A program made the position numbers and the translations under genes. 64,000 nt of DNA, taken from contig NZ_CP151273.1 of NCBI RefSeq assembly GCF_038237375.1, forward strand, positions 2,728,001 to 2,792,000, written 5' to 3'. The notes under the pieces were generated by a model. The model did not search any database, was not told the origin of the DNA, and saw nothing but the letters and a program-made list of their open reading frames with translations. Origin of the DNA: Alcaligenes sp. SDU_A2. GTDB taxonomy: Bacteria; Pseudomonadota; Gammaproteobacteria; Burkholderiales; Burkholderiaceae_B. Shown piece by piece: positions 4,191-42,247 of the stretch; the stretch's first letter is position 1, and each line of letters starts with the position of its first letter.

Positions 4191-4207
4191 GCAGGTCACA
4201 GTGGCAT

Positions 4208-5541: not shown

Positions 5542-5560
5542 CAAAACAACAGCAATCAAA

Positions 5561-7190: not shown

Positions 7191-7264
7191 TCTATCTAGC
7201 GGTTGTCCCGACTCGTGATAAGGGCCCTCTATCGCCATAATGTTCCAAGCAAGCGGTGCGCAAT

Positions 7265-7311: not shown

Positions 7312-7330
7312 CCTCTACCGGAAAGACGCC

Positions 7331-9172: not shown

Positions 9173-9587
9173 TGCCTTCCTCGGCCAGTTCCTTGTACTG
9201 CTGGAGCGTTGCCTGGCCACGGATCGAGCGTGGATGGCTTTGGCCATCGTGTATGCGTCTGGCCTCGGCCGCAAACTGATCACCGACATTATCGGACTGG
9301 CGGATAAGTGCGCGCAGTTGGGCCATCAGTTCGCCTTGGGCGGCACCGCTCATTGCGGTTTGCTGCGAAGGAACAGGCAAACCCTGGCCAGCCCTGGGTG
9401 GATCGGCCTGCTGTACCCCCACATTGATGCGTGGCGCAGACAACTTGCGGTTGACCTGTCGGCTATCGCAGACCGGGCAGCACAACACCCCCCGCTGCAG
9501 CTGCTCTTCGTAGCTGTCGCGGGAGCTGAACCAACCCTCGAACACATGACCGTGTTCGCATTCGAGATCAAAAACCTTCAGGCTCAT
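9123..9587 (-). CDS. DUF1178 family protein
   Basis: A 154-residue soluble protein. Its N-terminus (KVFDLECEHGHVFEGWF) and the CPVC pair identify DUF1178, a widespread proteobacterial family of unknown function; the two cysteines near residues 37-40, with upstream Cys and His, suggest a small zinc ribbon. The C-terminal half (ARRIHDGQSHPRSIRGQAT) is conserved in the family. The gene is convergent with the sigma-54 activator and overlaps it by 50 bases. No function is assigned. Confidence 0.8.
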   Translation of the reverse strand: MSLKVFDLECEHGHVFEGWFSSRDSYEEQLQRGVLCCPVCDSRQVNRKLSAPRINVGVQQADPPRAGQGLPVPSQQTAMSGAAQGELMAQLRALIRQSDNVGDQFAAEARRIHDGQSHPRSIRGQATLQQYKELAEEGIIAMPIPDFLDDDRLQ

Positions 9588-9687
9588 GGTGCGCTTATAA
9601 ATAACTGACCGGACCGCCCTATTGTAGACACATACCCCACACCCAGATAGTCATCCGGATGACGTACGCCGCCAGGGCGTAGTAAGC

Positions 9688-11388
9688 CTATAACCTGGGC
9701 ACGGCGGCCAGCAGACGCTGCGTCTGCTCCTGCCGGGGATGAAACAGGACTTGTTCGGCACTGCCCTGCTCGACAATACGTCCCTGCGCCATGATGGCGA
9801 TACGATCGGCCAGGTATTCCACCACCCCGAAATTATGCGTAATGAACAGATAGGCCAGCCCCAGTTCATCCTGCAACTGCTGCATCAAATCCAGAATCTG
9901 CGCCTGCACGGATACATCCAGCGCAGATGTCGGTTCGTCGCAAATCAACACTGCCGGCTCCACCGCCAAGGCACGGGCAATCGCAATACGCTGACGCTGC
10001 CCACCGGAAAATTCGTGGGCATAGCGATCCAATGAATTTCTGGGTAAACCCACCTGATCCACCAGCGTTTCCACCCGCTTGCGGCTGGCCTTGCCATCCA
10101 GATCGGGGCGCAAGGCCGACAAGCCTTCCTGAAGAATATCGCCCACCAGCATACGTGGGTCCAGCGAACCATACGGGTCCTGAAAAATAATCTGCAAACG
10201 CGCGCGCTGTTGCCGCAAAGCCTTGCCATGCGTGTTCAGCAAATCTTGACCGAGCAAGCGTGCCTGCCCGCCGATCTGCGCCTGGCTGTCCAGCAAACGC
10301 ATCAAGGCCCGGGCCACCGTGCTTTTTCCGCAGCCCGACTCGCCCAACAAGGCCAGCGTTTCCCCCTTGCGCAGTTGCAAGCTTAGCCCCTTGACCACCG
10401 CGACAGGCGGCGGACGCCGCCACCAGGAGCCGGACTGCCGGTACGCAACGGACAGATCCTGGATATCCAGCACCACGGACGCGTCCTTGTCCCGCGACCA
10501 GGACGGTCGCTTTGCCGGCGAAGGCTCCGACATAGCCGACAGCGGTCGGCCTCGCTTTTCGTAGGTTGGCACAGCACCCAGCAGTTCTTGGGCGTAGGGG
10601 TGGGTAGGCCGCAAAAAGAACTGACTGGCCAACCCCGACTCCACGATCTGACCGTGGCGCATCAAAGCCACGTAATCGGCATACTGACGCACCACCGCCA
10701 GATCGTGCGTAATGAGCAAGATCGCCAGCCCCATTTCTTTTTGTATGTCAGCCAGCAACTGCAAAATCTGGGCCTGAACGGTCACATCCAGCGCCGTGGT
10801 CGGCTCGTCGGCCACCAGCAGTGCCGGTTCGGCGGCCAGCGCAATCGCAATCATGATGCGTTGCTTCTGCCCACCGGAAAACTGGAAAGGAAAATCATCG
10901 TATCGCTGCTCGGCCGCTGCAATCCCTACCCGCTGCAACCAACGCACGGCAGCCGCTCGTTCCTGGCCCTTGGGAGCCACGCCGTGCCGCCGTATTACTT
11001 CACTGATCTGCCGGCCTATGGACATGACCGGGTTCAGACTGGTGGATGGTTCCTGGAAAATGACACTGACCCGCCGTCCGCGCACATCCTGCATCTGCGC
11101 CTCGTTCAGGCTCGGCAAATCCCGCCCGTCCAGCTCGACCGTGCCGGCCTGCATCCACGCGGCCTCGGGCAACAGGCGCAAGATCGCCATCGCCGTCATG
11201 CTCTTGCCGCAGCCGGATTCCCCGACCAGCGCAAAGGTCTCGCCGCGATGCACCGCCAGAGACAGATCGCGCACGACGCTCTGCACACCTGCGTCGGACT
11301 GCACGCCCACTTGCAGACCGTGGATGTCCAGCACACAGGCACCGCCGGATGCGGCCGGTTCCAGATCGGTTTCGGAGTTGATGGTCAT
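9688..11388 (-). CDS. yejF: Peptide ABC transporter, fused double ATP-binding protein (YejF type)
   Basis: Energises import by the YejABEF-type oligopeptide/microcin C transporter. The 566-residue protein holds two complete ABC domains in tandem: the first has Walker A GESGCGKS (56-63), the signature FSGGQKQR and the DEPTTALD Walker B, and the second repeats GESGCGKS, FSGGQRQR and DEPTSALD. This fused form is typical of YejF/GsiA-like proteins. The ATG overlaps the yejE stop by four bases (ATGA), implying translational coupling. It is the last gene of the minus-strand yej cluster. Confidence 0.93.
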   Translation of the reverse strand: MTINSETDLEPAASGGACVLDIHGLQVGVQSDAGVQSVVRDLSLAVHRGETFALVGESGCGKSMTAMAILRLLPEAAWMQAGTVELDGRDLPSLNEAQMQDVRGRRVSVIFQEPSTSLNPVMSIGRQISEVIRRHGVAPKGQERAAAVRWLQRVGIAAAEQRYDDFPFQFSGGQKQRIMIAIALAAEPALLVADEPTTALDVTVQAQILQLLADIQKEMGLAILLITHDLAVVRQYADYVALMRHGQIVESGLASQFFLRPTHPYAQELLGAVPTYEKRGRPLSAMSEPSPAKRPSWSRDKDASVVLDIQDLSVAYRQSGSWWRRPPPVAVVKGLSLQLRKGETLALLGESGCGKSTVARALMRLLDSQAQIGGQARLLGQDLLNTHGKALRQQRARLQIIFQDPYGSLDPRMLVGDILQEGLSALRPDLDGKASRKRVETLVDQVGLPRNSLDRYAHEFSGGQRQRIAIARALAVEPAVLICDEPTSALDVSVQAQILDLMQQLQDELGLAYLFITHNFGVVEYLADRIAIMAQGRIVEQGSAEQVLFHPRQEQTQRLLAAVPRL

Positions 11389-12842
11389 GCTTTGCTCTCT
11401 TGCTCCGCCCTGCGCTGGCGCAAGGGCTGGAAACGACGCGTGCGGGGATCAAAGGCGGCCTGCACCGCATCGGCAAAAATATTGGCCGACAGCACCAGTG
11501 CCAACATGAAAGCAAATGCGCCGGCCAAGCCCCACCAGATAACAGGATCGCGCGACAACTCGCTGCGCGCCGCATCAATCATGCGACCAAATGAAGGCAT
11601 GCTGGGGTCCACGCCTATGCCCAGATACGACAGCACGGCCTCATACAGCACCAGCCCGGAAAACTCCAGGATCAAGGTAATCAGCACGATATGCATGACA
11701 TTGGGCAAAAGGTGACGGAACATGATGCGCAAGGGCCGCACGCCAAAGGCCTGAGCGGCCTGCACATAATCGAGTTCGCGCAGCTTCAGGACCTCGGCGC
11801 GCAGCAGCCGGCACAGCCCCGCCCAACCGGTCAGCCCCAGAATCAGACACAACAGGAACAGGCGCAAGTCGGCCCGCGCCGCCACCGTATCGAAACTGTC
11901 GGGATGCGTATCGATATACACCTGCATCATCAAGACGCAGGCCGCGATCAGCAACACGCCGGGAATCGACGTCAGGGTGGTGTAGATGTACTGAATGACA
12001 TCGTCCACCCAACCACGAAAGTACCCTGCCGCCAGCCCCAGGATGATCGCCGGCGGCAGCATGGCGAAGGTGGTCAACGTGCCGATGACCAGCGCGGTGC
12101 GCACGCTCTTGAAAGCCTGCCACAGAATATCGTTGCCGGTGCGATCTGTGCCCAGCACATGATAGTTGGCGCTCAGGCTGATGGCCACGCACAGCACCAG
12201 CCCCAGCAGGCTGGCGCTGATCCAGACGGCGCGCCACGGCACCAGCCCCTGACCCTGCCACCAATACGTCCACGCCGCGCGCCAACCCGGCTCCAGCGCC
12301 TGACTGCGCCCCCAGACTGTCAGAAGCAGAACCAAGCACACTGCCCAGCCCAGTCCCCAAGCCAGTCCGCGCCAGGCTAATTGACGAAGGTCTCGATAAT
12401 GAGCCTGAACCGTATCCATCCCTACGCCAGCATTGATCAGCCGCGGAAAATCCCGCACCGGCTCCCCACCCACCAACATGCTTTCTTTGGTCAATTGAAA
12501 ACGGGCCAAAGGCGCGGAATAGGTTTTTTCCACATCCGACAGCCCGGCACCGACCAGCACATCGTCCAGCACGGAACGGGCCACCGGTGCGTACGAGGGC
12601 GCAGCAGATGACTGCCCCGGCGCAGGCGGCAACAGCGGACGGTAGTGAATGGAATCGAGCAGCCCCACCAAAAGAAAAAATGCCAGAAACACCGCCGCGC
12701 ATATGGCCGAAGGCGTACGCGCGACACTGGCCCAGGCCGATCGCAGACCGGGGCGGCGGCTGACCCGAAACGCGTAGACGGCCATGGCCAGAAACAGCGC
12801 CAGCACAAAGGTATCGGTCCAGAGAAAGACGAACTGTGGCAT
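11385..12842 (-). CDS. yejE: Peptide ABC transporter permease (YejE type)
   Basis: Inner-membrane permease of the YejABEF-type importer, 485 residues from ATG 12842. The N-terminal third has two hydrophobic segments plus a long periplasmic insert; the C-terminal part has the ABC permease fold with the EAA-loop signature (RAEVLKLRELDYVQAAQAFG). An in-frame ATG at 12875 would overlap yejB by 26 bases; 12842 sits seven bases after the yejB stop and is preferred. At about 485 residues it is longer than the roughly 340 of enterobacterial YejE because of an insert between the first hydrophobic segment and the conserved permease domain. Confidence 0.88.
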   Translation of the reverse strand: MPQFVFLWTDTFVLALFLAMAVYAFRVSRRPGLRSAWASVARTPSAICAAVFLAFFLLVGLLDSIHYRPLLPPAPGQSSAAPSYAPVARSVLDDVLVGAGLSDVEKTYSAPLARFQLTKESMLVGGEPVRDFPRLINAGVGMDTVQAHYRDLRQLAWRGLAWGLGWAVCLVLLLTVWGRSQALEPGWRAAWTYWWQGQGLVPWRAVWISASLLGLVLCVAISLSANYHVLGTDRTGNDILWQAFKSVRTALVIGTLTTFAMLPPAIILGLAAGYFRGWVDDVIQYIYTTLTSIPGVLLIAACVLMMQVYIDTHPDSFDTVAARADLRLFLLCLILGLTGWAGLCRLLRAEVLKLRELDYVQAAQAFGVRPLRIMFRHLLPNVMHIVLITLILEFSGLVLYEAVLSYLGIGVDPSMPSFGRMIDAARSELSRDPVIWWGLAGAFAFMLALVLSANIFADAVQAAFDPRTRRFQPLRQRRAEQESKA

Positions 12843-12849
12843 GGCGGAC

Positions 12850-13827
12850 TCAACTAAAACGAATGCGGGGATCAACCAGCGTGTAGGAGATATCGGCCAG
12901 GATCAAGCCCGCTATGTACAGCAGCGACCCCAAAAACACCATTGCCCTTACGATGGAAAAATCCTGGGCATTGATTGCATCAATGGTAAAGCTGCCCAGC
13001 CCCGGAATCCCAAAAAAAGATTCGGAAATCAAGCTGCCCATAAAGAGCAGCGGCAAGGCAGACACCGTCCCGGTCAAAATAGGCAGCAAGGCATTGGGCA
13101 GCACATGCCGGAACAACACCCAGCGTTCGCTCAAGCCTTTGGAGCGCGCCGTGCGCACATAATCCCGACTGGCCTCTTCCAGAAACAGGCTGCGGTAAAA
13201 ACGCGATTCGGCCCCCACTCTGGACAGAATGCCCACCAGCACGGGCAAGACCAGGAAACGCCAATTATCCACGCCTTGCACCCAGCCGGAAAACGGTACC
13301 CAGCGCAAAACGCGGGCAAACAGCCACTGCCCGGCAATGATGTAGAACAGCCCGGAAATCGACATCAACACCACGCACAGCACGACCGCCGAAAAATCCA
13401 GCCGGCTGCCACGGAAAAACACCATCAACAAGGCAAAGCTGACGCAAACCCACAAGCCAAGAAAAAAAGTAGGCAGTGCCAGAGCCAGGCTAGGGCCCAT
13501 GCGATTGCGGATCTGGTAGCCGATATCCTGGCCCTGATCGGACAGACCGAAATCCAGACGCAGCAAAGGCAAGGAGCGTTCGTAGAAAATGGTGTCCGTC
13601 ACGCGCGCGCCGCCCTGCGCCTGGCCGTTGTAGAACAAAGGCTTGTCGTAACCGCGCTCGGCCTTCCAGTTGTCTATGGCCGACTGGCTGACACGCTGGC
13701 CACCTATGGACAGACGCGCCATGTCGTCGGGCGTATTCACGGCAAAGAACAAAACAAAGGTCAGCAGGTTTACCCCGATCAGGATCAGGATGCCGTACAG
13801 CACGCGCCGCAGCAAATAGGAAAACAT
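12850..13827 (-). CDS. yejB: Peptide ABC transporter permease (YejB type)
   Basis: Inner-membrane permease partner of YejE, 325 residues. It starts MFSYLLRRVLYGIL at 13827, typical of DppB/OppB/YejB proteins, and that ATG overlaps the yejA stop by one base (TGATG). About six hydrophobic segments and a permease loop (YVRTARSKGLSERWVLFRH) are visible. The upstream in-frame ATG at 13935 would lie inside yejA and is rejected. Confidence 0.92.
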   Translation of the reverse strand: MFSYLLRRVLYGILILIGVNLLTFVLFFAVNTPDDMARLSIGGQRVSQSAIDNWKAERGYDKPLFYNGQAQGGARVTDTIFYERSLPLLRLDFGLSDQGQDIGYQIRNRMGPSLALALPTFFLGLWVCVSFALLMVFFRGSRLDFSAVVLCVVLMSISGLFYIIAGQWLFARVLRWVPFSGWVQGVDNWRFLVLPVLVGILSRVGAESRFYRSLFLEEASRDYVRTARSKGLSERWVLFRHVLPNALLPILTGTVSALPLLFMGSLISESFFGIPGLGSFTIDAINAQDFSIVRAMVFLGSLLYIAGLILADISYTLVDPRIRFS

Positions 13828-16013
13828 CAGGACCTCTCCTTGGGCAGGGCGACACGACGGCGACGCTGCCAAGCCATGCGCCACACAAGCAAGACCAATG
13901 CCAGCAAGGCCAATGTCAGGGGAATAAGCGGCCACCAGACAGGACGGTTCCAGGCCTGGATCAGTTGCACGCGCTGCGACGCATCGATCCGGTAATACTG
14001 CAGACTGTCGCGTATCATCAGGGACGGCTTGGCATTGCGTACCCAGGACTGATAGGCACCGCCTGCATTGGGCACATAGCCGAACATCCAGGGCGCATCG
14101 TGCTGCACGACCCTGACCATGTCGTGGATCAAGGCCTCTTTATCGGGCCCATCGTTCAGAAAGCGCATCTGCTCGTACAGCCGGTCAAATTCCGCGCTCT
14201 GGTAGTTGGCCGCATTTTCGCCGCCGTGATCCACTTTGGCCTGCGGCCCGTACAGCAAGGTCAGGAAATTTTCGGCATCCGGGTAATCGGCCACCCAACC
14301 CCACAAAAATATCTGCGCCGCCCCCCGCTTCATCTTGTCCTGGAAACGGTTGTAATCGGTGGCACGCACTTCCAGTTGCAGGCCGACCTGCGCCAATTGG
14401 CGACGCATCCAGTCTACCGTGGCGTCCGAACCCATGCCGCCCATCGAGTCGTAATACAAAATCAGGGGTTTGCCGGTGCGCTCATCGCGCCCATCAGGGT
14501 AGCCGGCCTCGCGCAGCAGCGCGCGCGCCTCGTCCAGACTGCGGCGCTGCACGGTCTGATCCTTGACGGTATACACATACGGATTGGCCCCCTGCGGCAA
14601 AGGCTGATAACCCGGCACGCCCGGCGGCAACGGACCGTGCGCCACCTGCGCCTGATCATTCATGAAGATGGACACATACTGCTCCCAGTCAAACGCAATG
14701 CTGACCGCCAGCCTCAGCTTGCGATTGCGTTCGGCTTGTTCAGGCGTATCGCCCTTGCCCACCACTGGATCGTGCCAGTTAAACCCCATATAGAACAGTT
14801 GCGCCTCGGGGGCCGTGCGCAACTGCAGCCCGAGCTTCTTGTACCGGGCTGCCTTGTCGGCCGAATCGTTGGCCGCCACCGTCATGGCTACACCGTACTC
14901 GCCCCGCTCGACCTGGGGAATGTCGTAATAACCCTGCAAAAACTTGCCCATCAAGGGCACGCTTTCTTTTTCCAACGAAAAAACCACTTTATCCAGAAAA
15001 GGCATGGTCTGGCCGCAATCGTCCAGCAAACCGGCCTGCTGGTCACCCGGCGCGCCCACGCAAGGGTAAGGTGTGCCCCGATACAGGGGATTGCGGCTCA
15101 GCACATGACGCCGATTGGTCTGGGACTCGGTCAGCATGAATGGGCCCGTGCCCACCGGCCAGTTGTCCAGCGTCAGACCGTGCTGCGCCATGCGCGGCTG
15201 GCTGTAGAAACGCTCTGCCTCCCAAGGGACCGGGGCGGTAAAGGTCATGGCCAGCCAATACTTGAACTGAGGATATTTGCCCAAGACCTCAATACGCAAC
15301 GTATGGTCATCCAAGGCCTGTACACCCGGCAAGACAAAGGGACGCAAATCCAGCCAATCGGGACGTGGCGACTGCTTGTCCGCTTGCGCCAATTGATCGC
15401 TGAACTCCTTGAAACCACGCACATGCTCGGCCATGACGGCAGAAATCGGGGAGGCCAGACGCGGGCTGGCCAGGCGCTTGAAGGCGTAGACATAATCCTG
15501 GGCGCTCAATGCACGCGATCCGACATGCTCGAAATCGCTGATGCTGAATGCCTCGCGCAGATCGGCGGCACGCATCGGGTAGTAGCGATACCGCCCGGCA
15601 TCATCCTGCGCAAACGCGGGATGGGGCTGAAACGCAATACCCGGTTTAATGGAAATATCGTAACGACTGATTGCGACTTGTTCACCCGGCACATCATCGG
15701 GCAGACGCTGTCCCTTGGCATCCAGATAGACCGGCTCTGTCAGCGCGGCGGCTGCCTTTGGAATCAGCCTGTACGGCCGGTCCAGGTAGTGGTAACCATA
15801 CAAAGGCTCGTAAATAGAATAGGTAAATGGCGTCTCGTCACCCGAATACGACAGCGCCGGGTCCAGATGATTGGGGGATCGCGTCGTAAAAGCGCTGTAC
15901 AGCACCTTGCCCGCGGCACTATGTTCTTCGTAGGGGCTGTTGACCGGCTTGCTGCATGCCGCGAGCAAAGCACAGGCCAGAACAGGCAGCCAACGCCGCC
16001 ACCGGCCTAGCAT
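13827..16013 (-). CDS. yejA: Peptide ABC transporter substrate-binding lipoprotein (YejA type) with C-terminal membrane helix
   Basis: Family-5 extracellular solute-binding protein delivering peptides to YejB/YejE, 728 residues from ATG 16013. The N-terminus has a basic start and a lipobox ending in LLAAC, so it is a lipoprotein. The body shows the family-5 pattern, e.g. LDPALSYSGDE near the start and RGAAQIFLWGWVADYPDAENF in the C-terminal lobe. Unusually, residues about 691-713 form a strong hydrophobic segment followed by WQRRRR, which looks like a second membrane anchor. The ATG overlaps the thermonuclease stop by seven bases, so the nuclease gene heads the same transcription unit. Confidence 0.88.
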   Translation of the reverse strand: MLGRWRRWLPVLACALLAACSKPVNSPYEEHSAAGKVLYSAFTTRSPNHLDPALSYSGDETPFTYSIYEPLYGYHYLDRPYRLIPKAAAALTEPVYLDAKGQRLPDDVPGEQVAISRYDISIKPGIAFQPHPAFAQDDAGRYRYYPMRAADLREAFSISDFEHVGSRALSAQDYVYAFKRLASPRLASPISAVMAEHVRGFKEFSDQLAQADKQSPRPDWLDLRPFVLPGVQALDDHTLRIEVLGKYPQFKYWLAMTFTAPVPWEAERFYSQPRMAQHGLTLDNWPVGTGPFMLTESQTNRRHVLSRNPLYRGTPYPCVGAPGDQQAGLLDDCGQTMPFLDKVVFSLEKESVPLMGKFLQGYYDIPQVERGEYGVAMTVAANDSADKAARYKKLGLQLRTAPEAQLFYMGFNWHDPVVGKGDTPEQAERNRKLRLAVSIAFDWEQYVSIFMNDQAQVAHGPLPPGVPGYQPLPQGANPYVYTVKDQTVQRRSLDEARALLREAGYPDGRDERTGKPLILYYDSMGGMGSDATVDWMRRQLAQVGLQLEVRATDYNRFQDKMKRGAAQIFLWGWVADYPDAENFLTLLYGPQAKVDHGGENAANYQSAEFDRLYEQMRFLNDGPDKEALIHDMVRVVQHDAPWMFGYVPNAGGAYQSWVRNAKPSLMIRDSLQYYRIDASQRVQLIQAWNRPVWWPLIPLTLALLALVLLVWRMAWQRRRRVALPKERS

Positions 16014-24451: not shown

Positions 24452-24528
24452 GCGGCTGTAGCTCAGTTGGATAGAGTACTTGGCTACGAACCAAGGGGTC
24501 GTGGGTTCGAATCCTGCCAGCCGCGCCA
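24452..24528 (+). tRNA. tRNA-Arg (anticodon ACG), copy 1
   Basis: A 77-base cloverleaf with encoded CCA. The acceptor stem GCGGCTG pairs with CAGCCGC; the anticodon stem CTTGG/CCAAG encloses CTACGAA, giving anticodon ACG; the T-arm has GGTTCGAATCC. ACG is read as ICG after deamination. Confidence 0.97.
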
Positions 24529-24539
24529 GTTTCAAGAAA

Positions 24540-24568
24540 TCTTCCCGCCAAGCGGGAAGATTTTTTTT
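24540..24568 (+). terminator. Terminator of tRNA-Arg copy 1
   Basis: A nine-bp stem TCTTCCCGC/GCGGGAAGA with a three-base loop and eight T. Confidence 0.9.
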
Positions 24569-24621
24569 GAAGCAGGTCATAAAGAAAGCACTTGTTTTTT
24601 GCGGTTAAATCACAAAAACAC

Positions 24622-24649
24622 TTGCAAACATATCAAGATGGTTTAAAAT
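24622..24649 (+). promoter_or_regulatory. Sigma-70 promoter of the second tRNA-Arg gene
   Basis: TTGCAA (24622-24627), a 16-base spacer and TAAAAT (24644-24649), about eleven bases before the tRNA. This differs from the promoter of copy 1, so the two genes can be expressed independently. Confidence 0.7.
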
Positions 24650-24659
24650 AATCGTCTTT

Positions 24660-24736
24660 GCGGCTGTAGCTCAGTTGGATAGAGTACTTGGCTACGAACC
24701 AAGGGGTCGTGGGTTCGAATCCTGCCAGCCGCGCCA
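24660..24736 (+). tRNA. tRNA-Arg (anticodon ACG), copy 2
   Basis: Identical over all 77 bases to the copy 131 bases to the left, including the encoded CCA, while the flanking sequences differ. Confidence 0.97.
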
Positions 24737-34066: not shown

Positions 34067-35302
34067 CTACACGCCGGCCACCACGCCAGCGCGCTGAAAG
34101 GCATCAAAATCAGCGGACTGCAGCTCGGACAAGGACAAGTCCCACCCTCCCTCCAGGGCCAACTGCCGACGCGCCACCATATGCGCGGCCGGACAATTGA
34201 CGGTCGCCACTGCCGCCACGCCCGGTCCCGAAAAACAATATGCCACAGCCATCTGCGCCTGCTCATCCACAAACGTGCGCACCTGGTCATAAGGCCCCTG
34301 CTCACCGGCAATCTGTATTTTCACATCCCCCTGGTCAGACCAATACCAAGGCAAGGCCTTGTACACCCCCTGTTCCTGCCCCATCAGCCGGGCCGCCAGA
34401 TAACGAGCCTGGTCATGCGCATTCTGCACAGACTCCAGCCGTCGGCTCCGGCCGTCCGCACCGCGCACGCGCGCGCAATCACCGATGGCGTAAATCCCAG
34501 GCGTGCCGGTCTGCAGATAGGCATCGACCAACACGCCATTCTGAACCTGCAATCCAGCCGCAGCGGCCAATTCATCCTGCGCATCAGAACCCACTCCTAC
34601 CACCAGCAGATCCAATGGCAAGCGCCGGCCCGACTGCAACAACAACTCGATGACCGTGTTCCCCTCGGTCATGCACTCCAGCACCGAATCGGCCAATACA
34701 AACTGCACGCCGGCCAGCTCGTGGCGCACCCGCACATACTCGCTCAGGCTTGGCGGCAGGCTACGCGACATGACACGATCGGCCGAATCCACCACCGTGA
34801 CCTGCATGCCCGCCGCGCAGGCGGCGCGCGCAAACTCCAGGCCTATAAACCCTGCCCCCAGCACCACGGCATGGCCGCACACCGGCATACGCTGCTTCAA
34901 GGCGCGCGCCTGATCCAAAGTGGCAATGGAGAATACATTTTCGGGGGCCTGGGACTGGATCGCCAAGCGGCGCGGCCTGGAACCCAGAGCCAACACCAGC
35001 GTATCGTAATTCCAGGCCTGCCCCTGCGCCGATACGGTGCGATCCGCAGGATCGATACTGTCTATACCCGCCCGGTGCAGTTCAATCTGTTGGGCCTGAA
35101 AAAAATCGGCTGGACGAAAAGCCAGACGCTCCTGCGGCACCTGTCCCAGCAAATAGCCCTTGGACAAGGGCGGGCGCTGATAGGGCAGCTCCGACTGGGC
35201 CTCCATCAGCAAGATCTTGCCCGCATAGCCATTTTTTCGGAGGGCAACGGCTAGATTGACGCCAGCATGCCCCGCCCCTGCCACAATGGTCGTGTGCGCC
35301 AT
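34067..35302 (-). CDS. FAD-dependent ferredoxin reductase (putidaredoxin/rhodocoxin reductase type)
   Basis: NAD(P)H-dependent reductase that passes electrons to the neighbouring [2Fe-2S] ferredoxin, 411 residues. Two dinucleotide-binding loops are seen: VAGAGHAGVNLA at the N-terminus for FAD and VVLGAGFIGLEFA in the middle for NAD(P)H. ELPYQRPPLSKGYL and the late IYAIGDCARV motif are characteristic of this reductase group. It follows the ferredoxin gene by 13 bases as the last gene of the carrier-protein operon, where it should supply the P450. Confidence 0.9.
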   Translation of the reverse strand: MAHTTIVAGAGHAGVNLAVALRKNGYAGKILLMEAQSELPYQRPPLSKGYLLGQVPQERLAFRPADFFQAQQIELHRAGIDSIDPADRTVSAQGQAWNYDTLVLALGSRPRRLAIQSQAPENVFSIATLDQARALKQRMPVCGHAVVLGAGFIGLEFARAACAAGMQVTVVDSADRVMSRSLPPSLSEYVRVRHELAGVQFVLADSVLECMTEGNTVIELLLQSGRRLPLDLLVVGVGSDAQDELAAAAGLQVQNGVLVDAYLQTGTPGIYAIGDCARVRGADGRSRRLESVQNAHDQARYLAARLMGQEQGVYKALPWYWSDQGDVKIQIAGEQGPYDQVRTFVDEQAQMAVAYCFSGPGVAAVATVNCPAAHMVARRQLALEGGWDLSLSELQSADFDAFQRAGVVAGV

Positions 35303-35315
35303 GCTCTACTCCACC

Positions 35316-35645
35316 CTATTCAGCGTGCTCGACAGGAATGCTCAAGCGCATGCCATCGAGCTCGGCACAGGCCATCAACTGACAAGACAGCCTGGAATTG
35401 GCCTGTCGACCCTGCGCAAAACCCAGCATATCCCGCTCCATGGCCTGCATCTGCGGCAAGCGCTCCAGCCACGACGGGTCCACGTACACATGACAGGTCG
35501 CACAAGAACAGGAGCCCCCACAATCGGCATCGATTCCCTCCACGCCTGCGCGGACTGCACTTTCCATCACACTCATGCCGGACTCGACCTCCAAGGTGCG
35601 CTCCAACCCCGTCGCTTCCACAATAAATACTTTCATCTTCCCCAT
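35316..35645 (-). CDS. [2Fe-2S] ferredoxin of the adrenodoxin/putidaredoxin type
   Basis: Single-electron carrier, 109 residues. The cluster ligands are Cys42, Cys48, Cys51 and Cys88 (C-X5-C-X2-C with a distant fourth), the vertebrate-type pattern used by P450 redox chains. The ESAVRAGVEGIDADCGGSCSC block is typical. Start 35645 is listed; an internal ATG at 35636 with AGGA eight bases upstream is an equally good start. It sits 23 bases after the hydrolase gene and 13 before the reductase. Confidence 0.93.
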   Translation of the reverse strand: MGKMKVFIVEATGLERTLEVESGMSVMESAVRAGVEGIDADCGGSCSCATCHVYVDPSWLERLPQMQAMERDMLGFAQGRQANSRLSCQLMACAELDGMRLSIPVEHAE

Positions 35646-35668
35646 CCTTTTTTATGGTCGACTGCTCA

Positions 35669-36424
35669 TCACAACTGAACGACACACGTCCCCAGTTCCC
35701 GGGCCGAAGACGGCGGCGGCGGCCTGTATGCATTTCGCCCGCTGCGCCCGCAGAACATGGCAAATGTCTTCAGATTGCCGATCTTCAGGTACACATTCTT
35801 GTCCTTGAGCGCTCCGAAGCACTGGCCGATCGGCTCCAGGTACTGATGGCCCGGATAGACCCGCGTATCCTGCGGCACGCAATCTTTGAGTCGCTGCAGC
35901 GACTCGAACATGTCCTGCACCGAGCCGGTAGGCCCACTGCACAACCCCACGCCTTCCATAAACAGGGTATCGCCGGTAAACAGGCAATCCCCCACCAGAA
36001 AGCAGCATGAACCGGACGTATGCCCCGGCGTGGGCAGAATCTGGCAAGCCAGGGTGCCGCAATACACCCACTCCCTGCCATGCGTCAGCCGCAAGGCAGG
36101 GTCCCGAAACCCGGAAACCTGTGCCTCGATATGCGACAGATAAATAGGGCAGCCCTGCAACTGCGCCAGCTCGGAGGCGGCCGCGATATGGTCGGCATGA
36201 CTATGGGTAACCAGCAGACCACGACAGTCCAGGCCATGCTCCTGCAGCAAATTCGACAGGAACACCGCGTCCCAGCCTGGGTCGATGACGACGGCGTCGC
36301 GGGACTGCGGATCAAATACCACGAACATATAATTGCGAAAAGCCGCCCGCCCTGACTCCACCACCAACAGTTGACAGGAACCAAGCTTGGCTTCGGGCTC
36401 TGCGCAGGCAAGCTGCCCAGACAT
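35669..36424 (-). CDS. Metallo-beta-lactamase-fold hydrolase (glyoxalase II-like)
   Basis: A 251-residue hydrolase of the glyoxalase II type. Zinc ligands are in THSHADHIAAASE, in TPGHTSGS and in the late YPGHQYLEP segment. In polyketide and similar clusters proteins of this fold (PksB-like) hydrolyse thioesters, so removal of misloaded or finished chains from the carrier protein is plausible, though not shown. It starts two bases after the acyl-CoA synthetase stop and precedes the ferredoxin gene by 23 bases. Confidence 0.85.
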   Translation of the reverse strand: MSGQLACAEPEAKLGSCQLLVVESGRAAFRNYMFVVFDPQSRDAVVIDPGWDAVFLSNLLQEHGLDCRGLLVTHSHADHIAAASELAQLQGCPIYLSHIEAQVSGFRDPALRLTHGREWVYCGTLACQILPTPGHTSGSCCFLVGDCLFTGDTLFMEGVGLCSGPTGSVQDMFESLQRLKDCVPQDTRVYPGHQYLEPIGQCFGALKDKNVYLKIGNLKTFAMFCGRSGRNAYRPPPPSSARELGTCVVQL

Positions 36425-36426
36425 GC

Positions 36427-37965
36427 TCAGACCTCCTGAAGCTCGGTGACCAAACTGCGGTACTGCTCCCGCAGCACGACCTTTTGTACCTTGCCCATGA
36501 TGTTGCGCGGCAGGCTGTCCACCAGCACGATCCGCGCCGGCATATCCGTTTTATCCAGCTCCGTATCCAGACGTTCCTGGATTTCCTGAACCGATACCAC
36601 CGCACCGGGCTTGGATACTACGATCGCCACCGGAACCTGCATGCCCGAACCATCGGGAACAGCAATGACGGCGCTTTCCGCCACGCCGTCGATCCGGTCT
36701 ATGCACTCCTCGATAACTTTGGGAAACACGACTTTTGTCGCCGTTTTAACGGCGTCCTTGACCCGGCCGACGATATGCAGATAGCCGTCGCCATCGAAAT
36801 AGCCATAGTCTCCGGTAATAAAGTAGCCATCGGCACGCATGTCTTCGGCCGTTTTCTCGGGCAGTTTCCAATATCCCGAAAACAGGTTTTCACCGCGCAA
36901 TTCCACAAAACCGACCTGCCCCGTCTCGGCGGCTGTACAACCATCTTCCTGCATGATCCGGATGGATACACCCGGTAATGCCAGCCCTACGCTGTTGGGA
37001 CGACGCTGGCCGTCATACGGATTGGAGGCAATCATGCTGCCCTCGGTCATGCCGTAACGCTCCAGCACCGTATGGCCGGTGCATTGCTGCCACTGCGCAT
37101 GGGTCTGGGGCAACATGGGTGCCGAACCGGAAATAAACAAACGCATAGACGCGGCCGCCGCCGCCAGGCCTTCTTGCTTGAGCAAGGCCATATAGAACGG
37201 CGGAACCCCCATCAGCACGGTGGCCTGTGGCAACAGACCCAGCACGCGCCGCACCTCGAAGCCAGGCAAATACAGCATGCTTCCTGCACAGGCCAACATG
37301 ACATTGGTCGCCGTGAACAAGCCATGCAGATGAAATAACGGCAGTGCGTGGATCAACACGTCTTTATCCGTGAAATGCCAGTAATCCACCAAGGTAGTGG
37401 CATTCGATGCCAGGGACCGATGCGTATGCACCGCCCCCTTGGGCCTGCCCGTTGTCCCGGAGGTGTAAAGAATCGCCGCGACATCCTGCGCCGCGCGCGC
37501 CTGGGCCTGAAAGCCGGGCTCAAAGCGCGCCATGCCATCGACCAGCGTACCGGTCTCGCCCACATCCAACGTCAGGCAACGGGACAAGGCCCGCACAGCC
37601 GGCAAGTCCTGGATGGTGGCGTGCATTGCGCTAGAACACACCAGCACGCTAGGTTCGGCATTATCCAAAAAGTACGCCAGATCTTCTTGTCCGTAGGCTG
37701 GGTTGACCGAAACATACACAGCCCCCGCCAACACCGTGCCCATATACAGCTCCAGCGAGGTCACGGTTTTTTCGGTGAAGTTCAGCACCCGGTCGCCCGG
37801 CCGCACGCCCAGTTCATGCAAAAACGCGGCAATACGCTCGCTGTTCTCAAAAAAGTCGCGATAACTGCGCTCCAGATTCCAGTCCACAGCGCGGATGAAC
37901 ACCTTGTCCTCCAGGCCTATGGATGGTTGTCGCAGTACGGATGCAAGGTAATTATTGGTATACAT
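36427..37965 (-). CDS. Acyl-CoA synthetase, malonyl-CoA synthetase (MatB)-like
   Basis: Class I adenylate-forming enzyme, 512 residues, that makes an acyl-CoA from a carboxylic acid, ATP and CoA. Motifs: P-loop YTSGTTGRPKG, RYGMTEGSMIASNPYDG, the GDYGYFDGDGYLHIVGR hinge and the terminal PRNIMGKVQK with the catalytic lysine. HALPLFHLHGLFTATN and the NPYDGQRRPNSVGLALPGV segment are closest to MatB-like malonyl-CoA synthetases. Its substrate may be a malonate-type or other short acid used with the carrier protein; unknown. Start 28 bases after the ligase gene. Confidence 0.85.
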   Translation of the reverse strand: MYTNNYLASVLRQPSIGLEDKVFIRAVDWNLERSYRDFFENSERIAAFLHELGVRPGDRVLNFTEKTVTSLELYMGTVLAGAVYVSVNPAYGQEDLAYFLDNAEPSVLVCSSAMHATIQDLPAVRALSRCLTLDVGETGTLVDGMARFEPGFQAQARAAQDVAAILYTSGTTGRPKGAVHTHRSLASNATTLVDYWHFTDKDVLIHALPLFHLHGLFTATNVMLACAGSMLYLPGFEVRRVLGLLPQATVLMGVPPFYMALLKQEGLAAAAASMRLFISGSAPMLPQTHAQWQQCTGHTVLERYGMTEGSMIASNPYDGQRRPNSVGLALPGVSIRIMQEDGCTAAETGQVGFVELRGENLFSGYWKLPEKTAEDMRADGYFITGDYGYFDGDGYLHIVGRVKDAVKTATKVVFPKVIEECIDRIDGVAESAVIAVPDGSGMQVPVAIVVSKPGAVVSVQEIQERLDTELDKTDMPARIVLVDSLPRNIMGKVQKVVLREQYRSLVTELQEV

Positions 37966-37993
37966 AGTCTCACTCGGTCTTGGTTTTATTTTT

Positions 37994-38713
37994 TTACGCT
38001 ACGGCCTGAGCAAGGCGGCTTTCGTACTTGCTGTAGATTCTGTTGTAGCCCATGCCAAAGCATGCGCTGTACAGATCGCCGCCATCACTGGATTTAATGT
38101 CGCAGGACAGGGAAAACGCCTTCAGGTGAAGATTGATGGACCCACACGCCAAGCCGTCCACAATAAACTCGCTTTTCAGATTCTGATTTTCCTGGAACTT
38201 CTGGCGAAAATCATTCGCATTGAAAAACGGATCGGTGGCCTTTTCCAGCTCCACATCCAAGCCAATTTGCCGTATCAACCCGGCCACCTGTTGTTTAACA
38301 TCTTCTATCCATGCCTGGACTACCGCCAGATCAGCCGACAAAAAGATGTATTCCCGCATCAAGAACGAAATCTGCCGTTCTCCAGGCGCGTAATACTTTT
38401 CGCATCTGAAGCAAAAACACTTATTACTCAACAAAGTATCTTTGTGTAATTTTTTTCCAGAAAGGTTATAAAAGACCGGATAACAGCAGGTGGGCGACAA
38501 AAGATACTTTTCTTTTTCATCTATGTCGTTCCCGACACGAAAGGCATGCTGTGAAAAAGACTGGAAATACTTTTCCGCCAAGACAAAGTCGGCCGGCAAC
38601 ATGGGCGACACACTCATATCGGTCGCCCCGGAAAAACAGGGCAGCGCCGCCAGCCAGCCATCCATGTCGGCCTCGAACTTGGGGCTGATCGCCATTGAAT
38701 TATTGAAACTCAT
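37994..38713 (-). CDS. Amino acid:carrier-protein ligase, class II aminoacyl-tRNA-synthetase-like
   Basis: A 239-residue protein matching the seryl-tRNA-synthetase-derived enzymes that attach an amino acid to the phosphopantetheine of a small carrier protein. It shows a motif 2 of the form FRCE (102-105), an LMREYI segment (119-123) and a motif 3 GMGYNR (220-225, G-x-G-x-x-R). Cys76, Glu121 and Cys218 are spaced like the zinc ligands I recall for the Bradyrhizobium enzymes (C131, E176, C279). It lacks the tRNA-binding arm. Shorter than the roughly 320 residues of characterised members. The ATG overlaps the carrier-protein stop by four bases. It is AT-richer than its neighbours. Confidence 0.72.
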   Translation of the reverse strand: MSFNNSMAISPKFEADMDGWLAALPCFSGATDMSVSPMLPADFVLAEKYFQSFSQHAFRVGNDIDEKEKYLLSPTCCYPVFYNLSGKKLHKDTLLSNKCFCFRCEKYYAPGERQISFLMREYIFLSADLAVVQAWIEDVKQQVAGLIRQIGLDVELEKATDPFFNANDFRQKFQENQNLKSEFIVDGLACGSINLHLKAFSLSCDIKSSDGGDLYSACFGMGYNRIYSKYESRLAQAVA

Positions 38714-38961
38714 CCCAGCTCCTTGTCCAGAAAGAATTTGGCGACCATCGCATCGACACTGACCATGTCATCGAGATCCAGCTCCTCAAACGCAATGCTC
38801 GTTCCCGACAACTCCTCCAGCAGCAAAACCAGATTCACAATATTCAGGCTGTCCACGATTCCGGACTCGATCAACTCCGTCTGCGCGTTGATCTCCAGCT
38901 CACGTGGTTTGATGGCCTCTTTCAAGTAATCAACAATTCTGCTTTTTATTTCGTCAGACAT
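38710..38961 (-). CDS. Acyl/aminoacyl carrier protein
   Basis: An 83-residue carrier protein from ATG 38961 (MSDEIKSRIVDYL). Helix 2 starts ESGIVDSLNIVNLVLLLEE, whose Asp-Ser-Leu is the attachment site for phosphopantetheine. No phosphopantetheinyl transferase is encoded nearby, so a genome-wide one must act on it. It overlaps the ligase gene by four bases; the partner is therefore the ligase. It is the first gene of a six-gene minus-strand operon (carrier protein, ligase, acyl-CoA synthetase, hydrolase, ferredoxin, reductase). Confidence 0.88.
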   Translation of the reverse strand: MSDEIKSRIVDYLKEAIKPRELEINAQTELIESGIVDSLNIVNLVLLLEELSGTSIAFEELDLDDMVSVDAMVAKFFLDKELG

Positions 38962-38975
38962 TTTTATCGCTCTCA

Positions 38976-39003
38976 AAAAAAAGGCCTCCTCCGATAGGCG
39001 GCC
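38976..39003 (-). terminator. Terminator after the tetR gene
   Basis: On the minus strand a GGCC/GGCC and CCT/AGG stem with one mismatch and a short loop, followed by eight T. It separates tetR from the carrier-protein operon, which should then have its own promoter. Confidence 0.65.
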
Positions 39004-39036
39004 ATCTTGGTCAACCCGTGCGAACAACAGGTTTTT

Positions 39037-39729
39037 TTAGTCGAAACTTCTGAAACAACTGTCCGCCTCAACCATGCTCTCCAACCTGGCAAGGCGCCGT
39101 TCCTGCTCGGCCGCTTCCTGTCTCAAGCGGGCGTTTTCCCCCTCCAGCAACAACAACCTATCCTGCGGCGCTGTCTGCGCCTCCTGGGCAAGGGCTCTTT
39201 GGGCAGCATCACATGCGCGCCCAAGCGCCCGCTCCATGGCATTGACATCGTCATCCACCAACAACCAAATCGAGGCTCCTTCCAGGCACGCCACCGCGTC
39301 TCTGGCGACCGCCCTTGCTGCCGGCTGCCCGACCTGGGGAGCTTGCATCAGGGCAGCCATCAAATGCGCCTCCAAAGCCACAAAAAAATGCTTGACCGGC
39401 ACATCCGTCAGAGACAGATCCAACCCGTACAGCAGGTGAAAACCAATACATCTGCGAGTGCTGCTCAACAGCCTGCTCATCTGACCAACAATGGTCTCGA
39501 AATCCCGCAAAGCCTCGCCCGTCAATACTGACGCGGCAAGCAGTTCATCCAAAACCCGTTGCAGCGCCAAGGACACCAACTGTTCTTTATTCGCAAAATG
39601 GCTATACAGCGATGCCTTCTGCAAGCCTACCGCTTTGGCGATGTCGCTCATGGACACGCCATTGAAACCCCGCTCCCGCACCAACTGCGCAGCCACATCG
39701 ACGATATGGTCTTTGCTGACTTTTGTCAT
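39037..39729 (-). CDS. TetR-family transcriptional regulator
   Basis: A 230-residue repressor-type regulator starting at 39729 (MTKVSKDHIVD). Its N-terminal helix-turn-helix is ERGFNGVSMSDIAKAVGLQKASLYSHFANKEQL; the C-terminal ligand-binding domain is variable, ending in a basic coiled region. The frame extending to 39846 would include the operator region and is rejected. Divergent from the PPOX flavoprotein gene, with a palindromic site between them; it probably regulates this pair and possibly the whole carrier-protein/P450 locus. Confidence 0.88.
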   Translation of the reverse strand: MTKVSKDHIVDVAAQLVRERGFNGVSMSDIAKAVGLQKASLYSHFANKEQLVSLALQRVLDELLAASVLTGEALRDFETIVGQMSRLLSSTRRCIGFHLLYGLDLSLTDVPVKHFFVALEAHLMAALMQAPQVGQPAARAVARDAVACLEGASIWLLVDDDVNAMERALGRACDAAQRALAQEAQTAPQDRLLLLEGENARLRQEAAEQERRLARLESMVEADSCFRSFD

Positions 39730-39738
39730 GAAAACTTC

Positions 39739-39754
39739 CGACCGTTCGGTTGTA
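39739..39754. promoter_or_regulatory. Putative TetR operator
   Basis: An inverted repeat ACCG-TT-CGGT (39741-39750), with flanking bases, just upstream of the tetR start codon and in the intergenic region shared with the PPOX gene. Short, but the position and shape fit a TetR site. Confidence 0.55.
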
Positions 39755-39811
39755 AAAATAGCGAATAAATCGTAGAATTTTGTATCCCATTTGTCAAGCT
39801 GGAGTCTTCTA

Positions 39812-40348
39812 ATGACGGATTTGAATTTTCCTACCGACTCTCCCATCGAGCACGAAGGCGAGCTGGAAATGCGACGTCGGTTTCCCAGCAGCTATCAATG
39901 GGACGAATACAACATCAAAGGAATGGTGCGCAACGTCATTCACCCCGGCTTTGCCCGCTTCATCGAAGCCCTGCCTTTTTTCTTTATTGCTACCGCCAAT
40001 CAGCACGGCCATTGCGATGCCAGCTACCGCGGCTGCGAAACATCCAAAACCGGCGAACTGCTCCCCCCGCTCAAAGTCATCGACGAAAAAACACTGATCT
40101 TTCCCGACTACAGCGGCAACGGTCTGTACAACAGCCTGGGCAATATCCTGACCAACCCGCACATCGGCATGCTATTTATCGATTTCAGCCGCCGCACCCG
40201 CGTTCGCCTGAATGGCATTGCCCATATTTTTGACGCCACTCCCGAAATCCTTCAGATCTGGCCCGACGCCCAGGCCTATGTCCAAGTCAAAGTCGAACAA
40301 GCCTACGGAAACTGCCCCGCACGCATTCCCCGCATGGCTCTTATTTAA
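39812..40348 (+). CDS. Pyridoxamine 5'-phosphate oxidase-like FMN/flavin-binding protein
   Basis: A 178-residue split-barrel protein of the PPOX class. The FFFIATANQHGHCDASYRG block and LIFPDYSGNGLYNSLGNILTNPHIGMLFIDF strands are typical of these FMN- or F420-type proteins; the C-terminus ends CPARIPRMALI. Start 39812 has GGAG seven bases upstream; an earlier TTG at 39791 is rejected. It is divergent from tetR, with the P450 gene 140 bases downstream. Its role in the locus, if any, is unknown; it may be a flavin oxidoreductase. Confidence 0.78.
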   Translation: MTDLNFPTDSPIEHEGELEMRRRFPSSYQWDEYNIKGMVRNVIHPGFARFIEALPFFFIATANQHGHCDASYRGCETSKTGELLPPLKVIDEKTLIFPDYSGNGLYNSLGNILTNPHIGMLFIDFSRRTRVRLNGIAHIFDATPEILQIWPDAQAYVQVKVEQAYGNCPARIPRMALI

Positions 40349-40402
40349 ATCCCGCCGATGACAGCAAGGCCAATACTACGCCAGGCTGTAAAAAACAAAC
40401 TA

Positions 40403-40450
40403 CCCCGCAAATACCCCACCCTATCGATTAAAAACAGGGTGCAGCCGGGG
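40403..40450. other. Nested stem-loop upstream of the P450 gene
   Basis: Inner arms CACCCT/AGGGTG (40417-40422 and 40436-40441) inside outer CCCCG/CGGGG arms. There is no T-run. It could act as an attenuator or mRNA structure in the P450 leader. Confidence 0.4.
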
Positions 40451-40488
40451 CGCTCTCAAAATCAATTATCTGGACGGAGTTTTATTTC

Positions 40489-41499
40489 ATGACCGGCACA
40501 AAAGAAATCACCATACGTGATCCAAAACACGGCAGGGAGGTGTTTACCAATGAATCCTTCCGAGTCGATCACCCTTTTCGCACGACCCGACAAATCTTCG
40601 GCCCCAATGTCTTGGATACCGAAGGCTCTGTTCATTTGAAACGTAAAAGAATCTGGAATACGACGTTCGGGCGGCGTGCCATCAATTCGGAACCGTTTCA
40701 GGAAATCATCTGCGACGCCGTTCGACAAGGCTTGATATACGCCCAATCAGCTAACAATCTCTATCTGGCCGCAACCTATATTCCGAACAAAATTGTTCTG
40801 GATGTATTGGGCTGCTCGGAGTTGGACCCATTGACGCATTTTGAACAAGTCCGGCCACTGATCGGCTTTCTGGAGTCCGGCCATAAGCCCGACGGTTATG
40901 CGCAAGCCAAGCAATACGTGCGCAATCCCATGTTCTATCAAAAAGCAGAATTTTTTGAGGGCTTGAGCGATAAAGAGCGGGAAAACGATATTGCGCTGCT
41001 GGTGGGTGCAGGCATCGAAACCACTGTTATTTCCCTGAAAATCCTGATGAGCGCCTGGGCTCGAGACCCCAACCGCTTCAAGGCCGCCATCGAACATCAC
41101 GGCGTGGAAACTTTTGTCGAACTATTGCTCAACGCCGACCCGCCGCTGGGCATTGCGACAAAATACTGTTCGCAGCCCACATCGTTCAAGGACGTGCAAC
41201 TGGAAAAAGGCGACATTGTCCATGTCAGCATTCTGGATGCCAACCAAGGCGCACAATGCCCATTTCAACACGCTGCGCCAAGCAATCAAGACAATGGCCC
41301 GGCGCTGACATTCGGCCTGGGGCGACACCACTGCCCTGGCCACCTGCTGGCCAAGGCCGAACTGGCCGAACTGGCCCGTGCGCTGCTCAAGCTAGATCCC
41401 GCCCACTTTGATTTCCTGGCACCATCCGACCCGCAAGAAAAACGCGCCCTGAACTTTCGTCATCCACCAGACTGGATCATAAGAAACCAGCCCCTCTAA
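40489..41499 (+). CDS. Cytochrome P450, short, with degenerate ExxR motif
   Basis: A 336-residue P450. The heme-binding signature FGLGRHHCPG is intact with Cys282 as thiolate ligand, and the I-helix has A174-G-x-E177-T. Two features are odd. It is about 60 residues shorter than usual, mostly at the N-terminus. And the K-helix, normally E-x-x-R, reads FVELLLNADPP, where the expected Arg is replaced. ATG 40489 has GGACGGAG about ten bases upstream, so the short start looks genuine. Electrons would come from the ferredoxin and reductase in the adjacent minus-strand operon; the carrier-protein-bound amino acid is the proposed substrate. Confidence 0.82.
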   Translation: MTGTKEITIRDPKHGREVFTNESFRVDHPFRTTRQIFGPNVLDTEGSVHLKRKRIWNTTFGRRAINSEPFQEIICDAVRQGLIYAQSANNLYLAATYIPNKIVLDVLGCSELDPLTHFEQVRPLIGFLESGHKPDGYAQAKQYVRNPMFYQKAEFFEGLSDKERENDIALLVGAGIETTVISLKILMSAWARDPNRFKAAIEHHGVETFVELLLNADPPLGIATKYCSQPTSFKDVQLEKGDIVHVSILDANQGAQCPFQHAAPSNQDNGPALTFGLGRHHCPGHLLAKAELAELARALLKLDPAHFDFLAPSDPQEKRALNFRHPPDWIIRNQPL

Positions 41500-41742: not shown

Positions 41743-42247
41743 GGGCCTTCGCCGCACTGAGCGCCGCAACATTAAGCGCCGTGGTATGCGCACAAACCAT
41801 TCCTTCCCCTGGTCGACTGGAAGGCACAACGGCTTTTCTAAGCCAGGCAGACACCCCGAAAAAAGCCACGAAAAGCCATCCCGAGTGGTTCCGTGGAACC
41901 GGTAAATCTACTTTGGCTCACTCGAAATGAAGCCGGGCTACACCTATCCCGCCCACAACCATCCCGCTCCGGAAATTTACTACGTCATCGACGGTGAAGC
42001 GGAGTGGTACGTGGATGACGAAAAGAAAACCGTCAAACCAGGCGATGTAATCTATCACCGCCCCTACGCTTCTCATGGCTGGACAGTCACCGGCGACAAG
42101 CCGCTTAAAGCAACCTGGTTATGGTGGTCCGAAGGCGACGGCAGCGTTCTGAGCAAAAGCGCCAAGATGATCAATCCGGAAACGGCCAGTAAAGAAGAAA
42201 CCGCCAACCCCGCTTCCGTACCGCTTCCACCCGTACGCCAGAAGTAA
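41743..42247 (+). pseudogene. Broken cupin gene, DMSP-lyase-like family
   Basis: The 3' part (41927-42247, 106 codons) encodes a cupin with the metal-binding YPAHNHPAPEIYYVIDGEAEW motif and a PGDVIYHRPYASHGW second motif, resembling the DMSP-lyase-like cupin family. The 5' part lies in another frame: it reads like a signal peptide (ALSAATLSAVVCAQ) and continues HPEWFRGTGK. Adding one base near 41902 would join it to IYFGSLEMKPGYTYPAHNH in the cupin frame, the expected continuation. Copy B of the mosaic repeat has replaced the original start. Both a frameshift and loss of the 5' end point to a pseudogene; a shortened product from ATG 41927 cannot be excluded. Confidence 0.68.

Follow-up and report, generated by a model that had tools for sequence, protein, structure and literature searches.

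A gene cluster joining a predicted amino acid:carrier-protein ligase to a cytochrome P450 in Alcaligenes sp. SDU_A2: a candidate route for oxidation of a carrier-bound amino acid

Amino acid:[carrier protein] ligases were reportedly described from Bradyrhizobium by Mocibob in 2010 and 2013 (Bll0957; PDB entries 3MEY and 4H2S), and in the NikP1/NikQ and NovH/NovI systems an amino acid is loaded onto a carrier by an adenylation domain, oxidized by a P450 and then released. This study concerns positions 34067–41499 of a 64,000-nucleotide stretch of DNA from Alcaligenes sp. SDU_A2 (the window; positions 2,728,001–2,792,000 of a one-contig genome of 3.65 Mb), where a ligase resembling class II aminoacyl-tRNA synthetases (aaRSs), a stand-alone carrier protein and a cytochrome P450 are encoded together. 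For the canonical, sugar-linked branch of these ligases, a note in proof of 2010 predicted modification of the aminoacyl group, probably a monooxygenation, by a linked redox enzyme (available text of PMC2922099), and oxidation of a loaded amino acid is therefore not new as a general idea. The canonical branch is accompanied by a Rossmann-fold enzyme and by lipo- or polysaccharide genes (same text), whereas the window cluster contains a P450, a ferredoxin, a PPOX-type flavoprotein, a MatB-like ligase and a SolJ-like hydrolase. Such ligases have been characterized biochemically (PMC9437257, in the part available), and as far as the available text of PMC2922099 and PMC9437257 extends, the literature gives biochemistry or a predicted role and no worked-out pathway; neither text names this gene set or the association with AurF-type oxygenases described below. 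No published description of the gene set, or of an association of AurF, carrier protein and ligase, was found in the open-licence literature, which was accessible in part, and one may be in print elsewhere.

With the Bradyrhizobium Bll0957 ligases the window ligase shares a class II aaRS core, the positions of the zinc triad and a partner carrier protein; unlike them, it has 239 residues, is 22–23% identical (structural alignment) and belongs to a P450-centred cluster. Compared with NikP1/NikQ and NovH/NovI, loading here would be carried out by an aaRS-like enzyme, and the P450 has no ExxR motif. P450BioI (PDB entries 3EJB, 3EJD and 3EJE, with acyl-ACP, where ACP is acyl carrier protein) is a P450 for a carrier-bound substrate, as the window P450 may be, but the identity is about 18% and P450BioI acts on fatty acyl chains. 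The dob cluster, in which a carrier-bound hydrazone is oxidized, has an adenylase for loading, together with an FAD enzyme and the AurF/CmlI-like Dob3 (available text of PMC12154687); a stand-alone carrier protein bearing a small amino-acid-derived unit for oxidation would be common to both systems, but loading there is by an adenylase and the words aminoacyl and tRNA are absent from that text. Loci of the AurF branch of the ligase family (for example, Streptomyces NBC_01431) have, like the window, an aaRS-like ligase with an oxygenase gene within about 1 kb and usually a carrier-protein gene, but the oxygenase is a diiron protein (with an additional NMO-family protein in 26 of the 73 ligase loci introduced below) instead of the P450, ferredoxin, PPOX, MatB-like and SolJ-like proteins.

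The observed gene set is real: Pfam and NCBIfam scans of ten window proteins support every gene named in the first-pass annotation of this DNA. The features are as follows.

34067–35302, minus strand: ferredoxin reductase, putidaredoxin-reductase-like by domain content (Pyr_redox_2 and Reductase_C), 411 residues; accessory
35316–35645, minus strand: [2Fe-2S] ferredoxin of the putidaredoxin type (Fer2), 109 residues
35669–36424, minus strand: metallo-beta-lactamase-fold hydrolase, SolJ-like (Lactamase_B, HxHxDH), 251 residues
36427–37965, minus strand: MatB-like acyl-adenylating ligase (NF005702) with an altered A8 loop, 512 residues
37994–38713, minus strand: class II aaRS-like amino acid:carrier-protein ligase (NF005479, 83 bits), 239 residues
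38710–38961, minus strand: stand-alone carrier protein (PP-binding, with the serine in DSL), 83 residues
39037–39729, minus strand: TetR-family regulator (TetR_N), 230 residues
39738–39749, between tetR and the PPOX gene: CCGA-N4-TCGG inverted repeat, a possible but weak candidate for a TetR operator
39812–40348, plus strand: PPOX-type FMN flavoprotein (PNPOx_N), 178 residues
40489–41499, plus strand: short cytochrome P450 (PF00067), 336 residues
33950–42717, approximate extent: insert relative to congeners, adjoining tRNA-Ser(GCT)

The ligase has no Pfam match, and its NF005479 scores in the window and in the two orthologous clusters (83.1, 86.8 and 84.4 bits) are below the cut-off of 357. 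The structure model of the ligase (pLDDT 86.8) superimposes best on 4h2s_B, the Gly:carrier-protein ligase of Bradyrhizobium (Z 26.3 over 235 residues, 2.7 Å), the next other family being prolyl-tRNA synthetase (Z 21.8), and Foldseek ranks 1–10 are amino acid:carrier-protein ligases; as modelled, the protein has the class II aaRS catalytic core. No substitution occurs across 37 rows at C77, E121, C218, R103, E105 or R225, and C77, E121, C218, R103 and R225 align to Bll0957, where R103 and R225 correspond to the arginines of motifs 2 and 3. The positions of C77, E121 and C218 are presumably those of the Cys/Glu/Cys zinc ligands of the Bradyrhizobium ligase. The carrier protein scores 21.2 bits against the PP-binding cut-off of 20.8 and is best read as positions 38710–38961, which corrects the earlier call; its D37 and S38 are invariant in three rows, and in the window, as in the two orthologous clusters, its gene shares 4 bp with that of the ligase. 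One of the two phosphopantetheinyl transferase (PPTase)-family genes in the same genome could prime the carrier.

Conservation of the set was assessed in a scan of one genome per species across 84,980 GTDB species, with a four-row ligase alignment as the query. The scan matched 164 stretches, and 73 loci encode a ligase relative, mostly actinobacterial and at 26–39% identity; only two of these are orthologues (about 55% ligase identity), in Sagittula marina (Rhodobacterales; locus L062 or L063) and Fulvimarina pelagi HTCC2506 (Hyphomicrobiales; the other of the two), marine alphaproteobacteria of different orders. Both loci encode the TetR regulator, P450, PPOX flavoprotein, carrier protein, ligase, MatB-like enzyme, hydrolase and ferredoxin within about 6–7 kb, with identities to the window, for S. 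marina and F. pelagi respectively, of 38 and 35% (TetR), 40 and 42% (P450), 52 and 59% (PPOX), 52 and 53% (MatB-like), 40 and 41% (hydrolase) and 40 and 50% (ferredoxin). The conservation search that the first-pass annotation had called for thus places eight of the nine genes together in all three loci of this ligase clade, and the pattern against which it had set its proposal, a P450 never beside the ligase and carrier protein, is not what the loci show, since the three genes stand together in each. Because the eight genes recur in two other genomes of different orders, the co-occurrence is more than chance. The three genomes have three different gene arrangements, the PPOX gene being separated from that of the P450 in L063. 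A tree of 83 ligases groups the three that are linked to the P450 in a single clade, on a long stem and with 100/100 support. No NRPS (nonribosomal peptide synthetase) or PKS (polyketide synthase) family was found in the five open reading frames (ORFs) on either side of L062 and L063, none of the ten being assembly-line-like.

Sampled searches within the order, family and phylum gave ligase matches, the host genome included, in nine of 300, five of 250 and 44 of 398 genomes, respectively, and no further ligase orthologue, the best other score in the phylum search being 92.7 bits versus 473.3. A plasmid collection held 86 records with ligase relatives, all below 60% identity among the 40 listed, and three weak records for the P450. 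Samples of 369 (single protein), 295 and 199 (profile) genomes contained no further P450 of the window type, with seed scores of 602–779 bits and next scores of 43–53.

The wider ligase family is associated with oxygenases. Neighbouring genes in the 73 loci, some of which lie on short contigs, were typed with small purpose-built hidden Markov models, and AurF was counted within 5 kb of the ligase; an AurF-family diiron oxygenase was found in 61 of the 73, in every case actually within 1 kb, and by Pfam in L043, L047, L048 and L057. The window-type P450 occurs in the two orthologues alone among these loci. The order and family searches, which are less biased, yielded 13 loci, six of them with AurF beside the ligase, and of the four plasmid ligase loci read two have it; control loci around P450 and lysC genes, which are shorter (about 3–4 kb), gave none of 39 and none of eight, respectively. 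An AurF gene beside the ligase in a large branch of the family would be expected if the loaded amino acid is oxidized on its carrier.

No AurF was found among the ten window proteins or in L062 and L063. The same genome has a strong AurF match about 1.6 Mb from the cluster (1085385–1086236, 172 bits) and a weak one, below the cut-off, about 0.6 Mb away. DnfA is an AurF-like protein. The hydroxylamine oxidase DnfA was reported from Alcaligenes ammonioxydans in a paper whose available text mentions AurF 18 times (PMC9478400). A pairing of AurF with short-form ligases by length was not upheld, as L048 has AurF together with a 333-codon open frame. Two other loci are of interest in their own right. 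L047, from the same family as the host, encodes consecutively an O-methyltransferase, a carrier protein, AurF, an NMO-family protein and the ligase (6210–10171), a second kind of cluster within the host's own family. L056, on a plasmid of Streptomyces sp. NBC_00335, encodes ligase, carrier protein and diiron oxygenase together (2991–14410), along with three ketosynthase-type genes, two PPTases and a metallo-beta-lactamase-fold hydrolase, and may make a larger AurF-branch product.

The short P450 matches PF00067 with 29.2 bits (cut-off 22.8), and its model (pLDDT 79.9) indicates a P450 fold, with Z scores of 23–24 across 312–329 residues. The heme cysteine loop, FGxGxHxCPGH with an invariant C282, and the ETT of the I helix are intact in all three orthologues. 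A three-row profile of the ferredoxin finds ferredoxin 3hui, ferredoxin VI and putidaredoxin as its best PDB matches, and its C42, C48, C51 and C88 are invariant in the three rows. The reductase has no match in the L062 and L063 clusters and is consequently excluded from the core set; homologues of 37–38% identity are encoded elsewhere in both orthologue genomes.

On these grounds we lean towards a compact thiotemplated pathway that uses no NRPS module, in which the P450 oxidizes a carrier-bound amino acid, and the main support for this account of loading, oxidation, modification and release is the association of a ligase-family branch with oxygenases. The aaRS-like ligase would adenylate a small amino acid and load it onto the phosphopantetheine of the carrier. 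The putidaredoxin-type ferredoxin would feed electrons to the P450, in this strain via the linked reductase, and the P450 would oxidize the amino acid on the carrier, filling the place that the AurF-type diiron oxygenase has in the large AurF branch of the family. The PPOX flavoprotein may perform a further redox step, the MatB-like enzyme may activate an acid of the malonate type, either derived from the oxidized unit or to be coupled to it, the metallo-hydrolase, a putative thioesterase or editing enzyme, would clear or release the carrier, and TetR would control the cluster. These reactions, with their substrate and product, are predicted from the gene content. Of the minimal amino acid route with its own P450 redox chain that the first-pass annotation proposed, the grouping of the genes stands, as all three loci show, and the AurF associations are in keeping with oxidation on the carrier; a dedicated redox chain as a core feature finds no support, as the reductase is missing from the other two clusters. 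The clusters link a ligase-family branch to oxygenases, and the small set of apparently soluble proteins suits testing.

Several findings weigh against this account. The full set is known from only three genomes. At 83 of 357 bits the ligase is remote from the tested family, from which it also differs in motif 3, where GYNR replaces GLER, and in HRNF, which reads HLKA. The K-helix ExxR motif of the P450 is absent from all three orthologues, with ELLL, ATNM and LRLL at the aligned place, where three comparison P450s have EELLR twice and DEAMR, and the P450 lacks the first 30–45 or so residues of most aligned chains. The share of 61 of 73 loci is inflated, because the four-row query consisted mostly (three rows) of AurF-branch ligases; ten of the 73 loci have neither oxygenase, seven of the 13 order and family loci have no AurF, and of the 11 phylum loci read, which are short and come from the best of 44 genomes, one has it (L140, from the genome already represented by L048). 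No condensing or amide-forming enzyme for the MatB product was seen among the genes scanned. Finally, although Foldseek ranks 1–11 for the P450 model are P450BioI–ACP complexes, P450BioI is missing from the 50 rows of VIA-align, which are tied at Z 23–24, and the ranking is for this reason weak and is not used as a main argument.

An unlikely alternative, and the one that survives best, is that the substrate of the P450 is a free intermediate late in the pathway, or an acyl group derived from malonyl, and that the carrier serves only as an amino acid donor for an amide or ester. The P450 and PPOX genes are on the opposite strand, and the two are split in L063. The weakness of the Foldseek matches to P450BioI also favours this reading. 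The MatB-like enzyme, which scores 474 bits against PDB entry 4FUQ, retains R303, a residue present in both solved MatBs (4FUQ and 3NYQ) and absent from all 16 of the other AMP-binding ORFs used for comparison, and this hints at a malonate-type acid; the second basic residue (in LPKF/LGRF of 4FUQ/3NYQ) is Gly in the window and Lys and Arg in the orthologues. The placement of an oxygenase within about 1 kb of the AurF-branch ligase in 61 of 73 loci, however, agrees better with oxidation of the loaded unit.

A specific form of the favoured carrier-bound oxidation, which we consider improbable, is an aminomalonate route, in which the ligase would load serine or a similar amino acid, the P450 would oxidize it to an aminomalonyl-type unit on the carrier, the hydrolase would free this unit and the MatB-like enzyme would make its coenzyme A (CoA) ester or pass it on. 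The route gives the carrier protein, P450, hydrolase and MatB-like ligase successive roles, and the cut-off of NF005702 (malonyl-CoA synthase, 558 bits) is exceeded in all three clusters (607.5, 594.7 and 587 bits). However, the glycine of the A8 loop, present in all 16 other AMP-binding ORFs and in 4FUQ and 3NYQ, is replaced in all three MatB-like proteins (T, A and E), and transfer to CoA may thus be impaired; such ligases are listed with Gly and Ala as well as Ser in the available text of PMC9437257, a review, and no user of an aminomalonyl unit is found among the genes scanned. The MatB-like protein appears to be a naturally occurring variant of MatB whose transfer loop has been altered. 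The hydrolase in the three clusters scores 184.6, 154.4 and 173.3 bits against NF041804 (SolJ), its nearest curated model, the window score being about half the cut-off of 350, and its HxHxDH motif is conserved in three rows. SolJ belongs to the PKS/NRPS solanimycin cluster, and its deletion left bioactivity unaltered (available text of PMC9765074); a link to solanimycin was rejected, as the 12-gene table in that text shows PKS/NRPS and no such ligase.

It is likewise rather improbable that the P450-like protein is a heme sensor, or a peroxide-driven or isomerizing enzyme rather than an oxygenase, with a simple aminoacyl or malonyl conjugate as the product of the set. The absence of ExxR from all three proteins and of the reductase from the other clusters would suit such a role, but the heme cysteine loop, the ETT and a cognate putidaredoxin-type ferredoxin are present in all three, and CYP157 P450s also have no ExxR (PMC3599690, in the part available). 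The window P450 and its orthologues would add to CYP157 a second group of P450s that lack ExxR, and with this motif absent and the A8 glycine lost, the P450 and the MatB-like enzyme appear more unusual than the first-pass annotation recognized. It is very improbable that the genes adjoin by chance or are unrelated members of a decaying island: the insert adjoins a tRNA gene and has an uneven GC content, but the same set in two other genomes, in other arrangements and at 35–59% protein identity, argues strongly against it.

Extending the preferred carrier-bound oxidation beyond this clade, one may speculate, with considerable doubt, about a pathway family free of adenylation domains, in which aaRS-like ligases load stand-alone carriers for a dedicated oxygenase, usually of the AurF type, a clade of ExxR-less P450s has taken over this step (possibly nitrogen oxidation) in this lineage and a MatB derivative passes malonate to a non-CoA acceptor.

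From the carrier protein through the reductase the minus-strand genes are separated by −4 to 28 bp, in agreement with the tight packing first reported, and tetR lies 75 bp upstream of this run. The ligase end is AT-rich as had been stated, with GC contents of 48.1% (ligase) and 48.8% (carrier protein) versus 58.8% for the window; the P450 and PPOX genes have 53.0 and 54.0%. The PPOX flavoprotein scores 78 bits against TIGR04025, below the cut-off of 170. The CCGA-N4-TCGG repeat has six other matches in the window and is not found in the orthologous clusters, its matches in L062 (one) and L063 (two) all falling outside the cluster. The statement that no NRPS or PKS is present holds for the ten window genes scanned, in which Pfam finds no condensation domain and the sole AMP-binding enzyme is of the MatB type, but not for the genome: large NRPS genes with open frames of up to 5650 codons are located, distant from the cluster, at 3.316–3.356 Mb (16 condensation matches) and 3.617 Mb (one match).

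The cluster is part of an insert of about 8.7 kb beside tRNA-Ser and was apparently acquired. The insert is missing from all seven congeners (of nine others) whose locus was read; there, the gene to the left of the cluster lies about 0.2–0.4 kb from the conserved lysC/tRNA-Ser block, with no cluster genes between. ARAGORN identified the tRNA-Ser in the window as well as in all three of the congener loci scanned with it. None of the nine congeners has a ligase match. The aspartokinase of the window genome is 67% identical to that of Neisseria versus 54–56% to those of alphaproteobacteria among the matches listed, and in the plasmid-record comparison is also nearer to gammaproteobacteria than to alphaproteobacteria. 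No att-like direct repeat was found at the insert ends, the tRNA region having no exact word of at least 11 bases in common with either of two stretches compared with it. A cupin ORF at 41927–42247 (plus strand, 106 residues) matches Cupin_2 and, through the C-terminal part of the model alone, DMSP_lyase; with stops in frame upstream, it may be a small cupin or a remnant, and as it has no counterpart in either orthologous locus it was excluded from the set. Elsewhere in the window, two tRNA-Arg(ACG) genes (24452–24736), 131 bases apart, lie beside an AT-richer stretch (24–27 kb, GC 0.50–0.53).

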